From NCBI GenBank assembly GCA_951801655.1, contig CATONV010000002.1, positions 34,977-98,976 of the forward strand: a stretch of DNA of 64,000 nucleotides. Reading direction: 5' to 3'. This DNA comes from an uncultured Oscillospiraceae bacterium (GTDB lineage Bacteria; Bacillota; Clostridia; Oscillospirales; Oscillospiraceae). The translations under genes were made by a program, and so were the position numbers. This document shows positions 47,845-48,870 of the stretch, in pieces. Under the pieces are notes generated by a model that was not told the DNA's origin, searched no databases, and saw only the letters and a program-made list of their open reading frames with translations. The stretch's first letter is position 1, and every line of letters begins with the position of its first letter.

Positions 47845-48870
47845 TTACCGGTCGTGGTGGGGGTGGTCCATAACCACCTTGCAGGCCCGGGTGAGCTGGG
47901 CAAAGATGGTGGAACTGTACCGGCCCTCATACACGGTGAGCATGGGAATGCGGTCCAGCTTGGACAGCACCACATACTTGGGAACCAGGTTGGTAAGCGT
48001 GAGGGCTTTCACGTCTGCCTCACACTGCTTGCAGGTACACAGACCGAACTTTTTGATATACGAGGGAGCTTTTTCCTCTACCAGCGCCTGCATAATGTTG
48101 ATATAGGACACTTCCTCCTCCGGAGAGGGAGGGGCAGGCGTGGGAGCCGGCGCGGGAGCGGGAGCAGGCGCCGGTGCGGGAGAAGGAGAGGGTTCGGGTT
48201 CGGCTGCGCCCGCCAGGAGTTTTTCGATGTCCTCCTGACTCATCTTGCCGCCGGAGGGCGGAGCGGCGGGAGCCGGTGCAGGTTCAGTCTCGGCTGCGCC
48301 CGCCAGGAGTTTTTCGATGTCCTCCTGACTCATCTTGCCGCCGGAGGGCGGAGCGGTGGGTGCCGGTGCGGGTGTGGGCTCGGCTGCGCCCGCCAGGAGT
48401 TTTTCGATGTCCTCCTGACTCATTTTGCCGCCGGAAGGCGGAGCGGCAGGAGCCGGCGCGGGTGTGGGCTCGGCTGTGCCCGTCAGGAGTTTTTCGATGT
48501 CCTCCTGACTCATTTTGCCGCCGGAAGGCGGGGCGGGGATCTCAGGGACCTTTTCCGGCTGTTCTGCGGCCACTGGAGGCACCTCCTCAACTGTGGTTTC
48601 CCGGCTCTCCGCCGGGGAATCGGCGGATGTTTCCAGCTCCTCCTCCAGAGCGCGCTGGATCTGCTGGGCCAGGCTGTCGTCGTTGGCCTGGGCCACCTCC
48701 AGAATAGGTGGGAGAAGGGGGCGGGAAGGCGCGGCGGCCGGCTGTTCAGCGCCGCCCTCCGCCAAAGTTTCCTCATCGGCAGGGGCGCCCTCCCTGGGAG
48801 CGCCGGGGGCGAGTAAGTTCAAAACATGGGCAGTCTTGTTGCCTTTGGCATTCTTTTTACTTGCGGCCAT
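47845..48870 (-). CDS. ComFB-domain protein with four FliM-type CheY-binding motif repeats
   Basis: RBS aaaggag; Lys-rich N-terminus; four GGKMSQEDIEKLL repeats; C-terminal FGLCTCKQCEADVKALTLTNLVPKYVVLSKLD...FAQLTRACKVVMDHPHH matches ComFB pattern. Confidence 0.85.
   Translation of the reverse strand: MAASKKNAKGNKTAHVLNLLAPGAPREGAPADEETLAEGGAEQPAAAPSRPLLPPILEVAQANDDSLAQQIQRALEEELETSADSPAESRETTVEEVPPVAAEQPEKVPEIPAPPSGGKMSQEDIEKLLTGTAEPTPAPAPAAPPSGGKMSQEDIEKLLAGAAEPTPAPAPTAPPSGGKMSQEDIEKLLAGAAETEPAPAPAAPPSGGKMSQEDIEKLLAGAAEPEPSPSPAPAPAPAPAPAPTPAPPSPEEEVSYINIMQALVEEKAPSYIKKFGLCTCKQCEADVKALTLTNLVPKYVVLSKLDRIPMLTVYEGRYSSTIFAQLTRACKVVMDHPHHDR
48193..48537. repeat. Four in-frame 90-bp tandem repeats inside the ComFB-domain gene
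   Basis: cgycaggagtttttcgatgtcctcctgactcat(c/t)ttgccgccgga recurs at 48211, 48301, 48391 and 48481, exact 90-bp period. Confidence 0.95.

Follow-up and report, generated by a model that had tools for sequence, protein, structure and literature searches.

The gene at positions 47845 to 48870 (minus strand) of the 64,000-nucleotide stretch analysed here (the window; part of contig CATONV010000002.1, assembly GCA_951801655.1, from an uncultured Oscillospiraceae bacterium) encodes a protein that carries in one chain a ComFB domain and four copies of the motif by which the flagellar switch proteins FliM and FliY dock phosphorylated CheY (CheY-P). Judged by its architecture, a partner of the ParA/Soj-type ATPase whose gene lies immediately upstream is the best-supported identity of this protein, because every one of the 60 relatives whose gene start is intact also has a ParA gene and its basic N-terminus matches the rule for partners of such ATPases (PMC10241942). 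The conserved core of the system is this ParA ATPase together with its partner protein, a point absent from the original prediction, which a model had made from the letters of the window. The explanation that we favour, and to which we give an even chance, is that the protein serves the flagellar/chemotaxis machinery as a ParA-cargo adaptor, that its linker has turned into a multivalent dock for CheY-P, and that ComFB possibly adds an input for cyclic dinucleotides (c-di-nucleotides). We directly observed the domains, the identity of the motif and the constraint on it, the linkage to ParA, the co-occurrence with flagella and the either/or distribution of the array.

The open reading frame was confirmed with exact boundaries (341 aa, ATG start, AAAGGAG upstream), as were the four repeats and the C-terminal ComFB domain described in the original prediction, and the coding sequence is further supported by its Pfam ComFB match and by 600 homologues. 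From the N- to the C-terminus, the protein consists of a basic start (MAASKKNAKGNKTAHVLNLLAPG, residues 1–23, 48802–48870, minus strand), a helix (RPLLPPILEVAQANDDSLAQQIQRALEEEL), the linker with the array, and the ComFB domain. The helix belongs to a conserved, mostly helical segment (RPLLPPILEVAQANDDSLAQQIQRALEEELE, residues 50–80, 48631–48723, minus strand) seen in the columns of our alignment (A2), and the Pro/Ala/Glu-rich linker holds four near-identical copies of GGKMSQEDIEKLL(A/T)G. An AlphaFold2 (AF2) model of the 341-aa protein, built with 49 homologues, is confident for the ComFB domain (predicted local distance difference test score, pLDDT, ~90) and fairly confident for the helix at residues 56–83; each repeat core is modelled as a short helix (pLDDT ~72–78), and the rest of the linker is disordered. 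Pfam side matches on the repeats (SHS2_FTSA, DUF7343, TNP-like_RNaseH_C, FerI and others) were dropped, being short low-complexity stretches with scores near or below the cut-offs.

To place the protein in its genomic setting, we examined 80 named genome loci with this ComFB family, 60 of which contain the N-terminus of the protein (intact 5' end). A ParA gene is present in the locus in all 60, directly upstream of the partner gene, and its products are 59–92% identical to the ParA of the window (48894–49673, minus strand; AAA_31 3.7e-50, with ParA/Soj as best solved relatives), whose gene is separated from that of the ComFB protein by a 23-bp gap. All 60 loci also encode a KT[A/S][H/R]V[L/M]NLL-type start with a net charge of +1 to +5, and K12, T13, H15, V16, L17, N18, L19 and L20 are invariant in alignment A2. 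Residues 1–9 have a pLDDT below 50, indicating a disordered N-terminus. It has been reported that ParA/MinD ATPases are contacted by short, charged, disordered N-termini of otherwise unrelated partners (PMC10241942), and the N-terminal peptide K-T-A-H-V-L-N-L-L, which we propose as the ParA-contact peptide, looks like such a partner peptide. The pair lies inside the flagellar gene cluster; beyond the ParA gene comes the divergent fliD (49798–52647, plus strand), and tblastn neighbourhoods reveal the same synteny in most relatives. The ParA gene is kept in species without the array, and the array is therefore dispensable for the ParA link. The order of an ATPase gene followed by the gene of a partner with a short basic N-terminus is shared with known ParA/MinD cargo pairs (ParA-ParB, McdA-McdB, and those of the ParC chemotaxis and PpfA-TlpT type), in which the partner bodies are likewise unrelated between systems. 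Unlike in those pairs, the partner body here is made of ComFB and CheY-type docking motifs, a combination not described for this lineage in the literature that we searched.

Tandem Repeats Finder delimits the array at 48196–48536 as 3.8 copies of a 90-bp unit with 92% matches, and the sequence of one repeat is PSGGKMSQEDIEKLLAGAAE. The DNA pattern for SQEDIEKLL is found four times on the minus strand, at 48484–48510, 48394–48420, 48304–48330 and 48214–48240, and these copies correspond to AF2 helices at residues 122–130, 152–160, 182–190 and 212–220, respectively. Their core, S-Q-x-x-I-x-x-L/M-L, is the same as that of the 'EIDALL'-type motif, which is the CheY-P dock on FliM and FliY (PMC9126983; PMC7355467; PMC6946799). 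A relaxed DNA motif gave 6 matches in the window against 0.06 expected by chance, a count reached in 0 of 100 shuffles, and the six sites are the four array units, the N-terminus of FliM and the linker of FliY. With a stricter pattern, in which Ser is coded as WSN, five matches were found in the whole 2.5-Mb assembly, namely the four array units and FliY. Repeat units of homologues were also gathered with the [SAG]GK in front of them as the sole anchor, which gave 54 distinct ones; Q, I and the final L each occur in 54/54 of these and S in 51/54. The free variation at the SQ, I and LL positions that the original prediction had set against itself was thus not seen among the homologues, and core identity together with this constraint bears out its claim that the repeat core is the CheY-P-binding motif of FliM and FliY. 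As in the organism's own FliM and FliY, the core forms a short helix with a long disordered linker after it; unlike there, four tandem copies stand on a protein outside the C-ring, and the motif in the FliY of this family is itself internal and often repeated.

The number of motif copies ranges from 0 to 7 among the 120 homologues listed. Eleven assemblies (G005, G009, G044, G045, G054, G055, G057, G058, G071, G073 and G078) break inside the repeat array, so the copy numbers in these genomes are lower bounds. In three clade mates (L060 / L123 of G052, L028 of G009 and L017 of G014), 5–6 extra tandem repeats of ~20 aa (LPEGVLGWDENGQPIWDP) precede the SQ array on its N-terminal side, and the same protein also has a long (EP)n run. 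A separate observation concerns P0214, a 418-aa protein from a JGI metagenome with a MSDDAIAALL-type array in Ala/Pro/Glu linkers and without a ComFB domain. Arrays of this type may exist on a third scaffold. A search of 394 genomes of the class turned up nothing homologous to the N-terminal part of P0214.

FliY is a CheC-type switch protein, and other bacteria are known to use its motif as a dock for CheY-P. Counting I/V and S/T variants of the motif, we found that species whose ComFB protein bears the array (1–6 copies as seen in genomes) have a FliY with 0–1 motifs, in 21 of 21 intact FliY genes and in 5 partial ones (26 species), and that FliY carries 2–4 motifs in 22 of the 26 intact genes from species without that array. 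These FliY motifs are usually 2–4 copies of SQEEIE(R/K)(L/M)(L/M) between the CheC and FliN domains. Array-less orthologues with the ParA gene and the same body occur within the genus itself (G008, G013, G017, G018, G021, G056, G059, which is partial, and G064), and all distant relatives examined keep the ParA gene and the body and have no motif. Since so many ParA-linked relatives lack it, the array is, on comparative grounds, a derived add-on. In the tree of FliY domains, array presence changes at least four times (in the main clade, G013, G060/G062 and G037), and the FliY motif count moves opposite to the array in each usable tree pair. G037 is from a different family; its array is coded differently (MSDDAIAALF, ~5 copies), it has no FliY motif, and its relatives have 0–6 such copies. 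Taken together, the multi-copy string sits on the ParA partner or on FliY, and in no species on the two at once. This distribution suggests that the array, as a docking site for motor steering, can change its carrier.

The ParA-partner/ComFB protein belongs to the flagellum, not to competence. A survey of 64 genomes of the genus found the extended ComFB protein in 35, FliY in 34 of those 35, and neither in the other 29; the lone ComFB-positive, FliY-negative genome is G054, whose assembly is 79% complete. FliM gave the identical split in the first 25 genomes. The window itself encodes FliM (24614–25603, plus strand; PF02154) with the N-terminal motif LSQSQIDALL (SQSQIDALL at 24629–24655), identified by its DNA motif, and FliY (25624–26853, plus strand), assigned by its CheC and FliN domains, with a single SQEEIERMM at 26308–26334 in an Ala/Pro linker. 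One correction to the original prediction concerns FliY, whose motif is internal, at about residue 229 between CheC and FliN, and not N-terminal; it is FliM whose copy is N-terminal. The FliY proteins of this family are without the usual N-terminal motif and have 0–4 copies in the CheC-FliN linker; the FliY of G025, from the same order, has the N-terminal form (LSQEEINALLKGE). CheY, the proposed ligand of the array, is encoded at 26911–27276 (plus strand; PF00072; 4iga/1tmy E~1e-41) and is very close to Thermotoga maritima CheY, the structure of which has been solved with the N-terminal segment of FliM bound (PMC6946799). Two further open reading frames in or beside the flagellar cluster, 37312–38388 (plus strand, 358 aa) and 53647–54528 (plus strand, 293 aa), have no Pfam match.

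The ComFB domain occupies residues 258–337 (47860–48099, minus strand). The Pfam profile PF10719 matched it with 42.4 bits against a cut-off of 25 (E=7.3e-11), covering model positions 2–83 of 83, and a profile comparison found Bacillus subtilis ComFB (4wai) at E=9.6e-8. Consistent with this, the sole sensible Foldseek matches were 4wai (target-normalized TM-score 0.74) and the Synechocystis CdgR-c-di-GMP complex (8hja, 0.52), each with a probability of 1.0, so that the ComFB assignment of the original prediction is upheld by profile and fold alike. Cyanobacterial ComFB binds c-di-AMP with a KD of 2.6 uM and also c-di-GMP (PMC12313861), and CdgR binds c-di-GMP (PMC13075795); cyanobacterial members are the only ones for which such binding has been described. 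The C-terminal domain described here matches these receptors in profile and fold, and it shares the CxCxxC pattern with B. subtilis ComFB. The known receptors are short and stand alone, whereas here the domain follows a ParA-partner-like N-terminus and the array, and its nucleotide binding is a prediction. Caulobacter Cle proteins also link c-di-GMP with the CheY/FliM switch (PMC5677366); unlike the present protein, in which the FliM-mimicking side is fused to a receptor domain, Cle is CheY-like with an Arg-rich tail that binds c-di-GMP.

In the explanation that we favour, the protein would serve the flagellar/chemotaxis machinery of these Oscillospiraceae as a dedicated cargo adaptor for the upstream ParA/Soj-type ATPase. 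Contact with ParA would be made by its short basic N-terminus, and its constant body would comprise the conserved helix and a dimer-forming ComFB that possibly binds c-di-GMP or c-di-AMP. In the Lawsonibacter/Flintibacter-like lineage, the disordered linker would have been seeded with 1–7 copies of the FliM/FliY EIDALL-type motif, each of which may become a short helix when it docks in the alpha4/alpha5 groove of CheY-P. The array would thus form a multivalent dock that holds CheY-P near the positioned switch complex, where several weak sites would give avidity and make more CheY-P locally available to the switch. A similar increase in local supply has been proposed for the tethered N-terminus of FliM (PMC9126983). 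In sister species, an array of several copies in the linker of FliY would take over this task; if the FliY and partner arrays do replace each other, they most simply share the same ligand, CheY-P, and the same job. The dock on the partner protein would have the added property of being placed by ParA, with ComFB contributing a c-di-nucleotide input. It is tentatively conceivable, at well below an even chance, that the ParA-ComFB module stands in for FlhF-FlhG in flagellated Oscillospiraceae and that the relocatable CheY-P array, on FliY or on the ParA partner, couples CheY-P supply to ParA placement and to a c-di-nucleotide signal.

Several points weigh against this explanation. CheY-P binding, nucleotide binding, contact with ParA and a role in positioning are each inferred, and the c-di-nucleotide input is the weakest step because this ComFB is remote from the experimentally tested binders (profile E=0.048 to CdgR). 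The remaining 4 of the 26 array-less species have one FliY motif (three species) or none (one species). A strict tie of FliY motif loss to the ComFB array failed in these four species (FliY 1, 1, 1, 0), and we state the either/or rule in one direction only for this reason. The pattern also amounts to about four independent changes, with two pairs on well supported branches, which is too few for a sign test to reach 0.05. Finally, the ligand of the array could be an ATPase, because FlhG, a member of the ParA/MinD family, is described in one report as a binder of FliY or of the N-terminus of FliM (PMC12826062).

On that last possibility, which we consider unlikely, the array would have the neighbouring ParA, or else some other ATPase of the ParA/MinD family, as its ligand, in the manner of FlhG and the N-terminus of FliM; the module would then replace the missing FlhF-FlhG system, and the repeats would be C-ring decoys controlling ATPase activity as well as the number or place of flagella. 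The adjoining ATPase gene and the distribution of FlhF fit this idea: no TIGR03499 match over the curated cut-off was found in G000, in its genus or in G037, and of 41 genomes G025 alone, which is without the ParA-ComFB pair, has an FlhF that exceeds it. However, ParA pairing is unchanged in species whose ComFB protein has no motif, and in these the conserved N-terminus offers itself as the contact with ParA; the ParA here is Soj-like, not FlhG-like. Moreover, the flagellated G029 and G033 have FliM but neither FlhF nor the module, so the module is not a necessary substitute for FlhF. What the locus has in common with the FlhF-FlhG placement system is an ATPase for which the FliM/FliY motif region provides the tie to the C-ring; the absence of FlhF and the Soj-like ATPase set it apart. 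In the window at 30570–33505, a sigma-70 family gene comes immediately after flhA, and flhF and flhG are not in their usual place.

Less likely still is the mechanism put forward in the original prediction, a free CheY-P sponge gated by c-di-GMP or c-di-AMP on ComFB, which would directly set motor bias with no essential role for ParA. The CheY-P-type motif, the nucleotide binding of cyanobacterial ComFB and the GGDEF proteins encoded in this genome (5 matches) agree with it, but the invariant ParA linkage and the ParA-partner-like N-terminus do not, and a sponge would leave unexplained why the array shifts between this protein and a C-ring protein. The gated sponge fails as an ancestral or general function, because the ParA pair is the conserved core and the array is missing in many orthologues.

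Even less probable is a neutral origin, in which the low-complexity linker holds a 90-bp minisatellite whose expansion and contraction have little effect. Such an origin would suit units that are nearly identical in DNA within one gene and vary widely in number between homologues. Between species, however, the synonymous sites of the motif codons are saturated (proportion of synonymous differences, pS, 0.62) and the amino acids are kept (proportion of nonsynonymous differences, pN, 0.09, a value lowered by the motif regex used to collect the units), whereas pN is 0.48 in the linker just behind the motif, where positions are unaligned; with these two caveats, pN/pS is 0.15 in motif codons and 0.75 in the adjoining linker. 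The flanking linker thus drifts while S, Q, I and L are fixed in units found without requiring them, and a differently coded motif, MSDDAIAALL, has been multiplied in another family. A late-competence role in DNA uptake with no motility link, suggested by the name of the ComFB domain, is scarcely credible for a protein that adjoins the fliD region and tracks flagella, that reaches 28 bits against the cut-off of 120 for NF052654 (NCBIfam late competence ComFB, equivalog) and so is not the Bacillus competence equivalog, and whose genome holds a separate short ComFB gene (110-aa open reading frame, 80 bits).

The dedicated ParA-cargo adaptor with a CheY-P dock remains our favoured explanation. 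All of its parts are of kinds already known, and what appears to be new is how they are combined and the either/or distribution. Within the open-access literature that was searched, the words ComFB and ParA coincide in two papers alone; judging from title and abstract, these deal with natural transformation genes of Piscirickettsia and with B. subtilis competence subpopulations. ComFB is mentioned in none of the 12 top-ranked papers on ComFB, ParA, flagella or CheY, in a search that most subscription papers lie outside. If the explanation is true, a ParA-partner protein would bear the docking motif for CheY-P of the motor itself, and flagellar/chemotaxis placement, CheY-P delivery and c-di-nucleotide signalling, which are usually studied apart, would be joined in one protein, and this in common gut bacteria without FlhF. 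The CheY-P dock would then be a short, modular motif, open both to multiplication and to transfer between proteins of the C-ring and adaptor proteins, and the question of why FliM and FliY keep a tethered dock would become directly testable by the copy number and the place of the motif.
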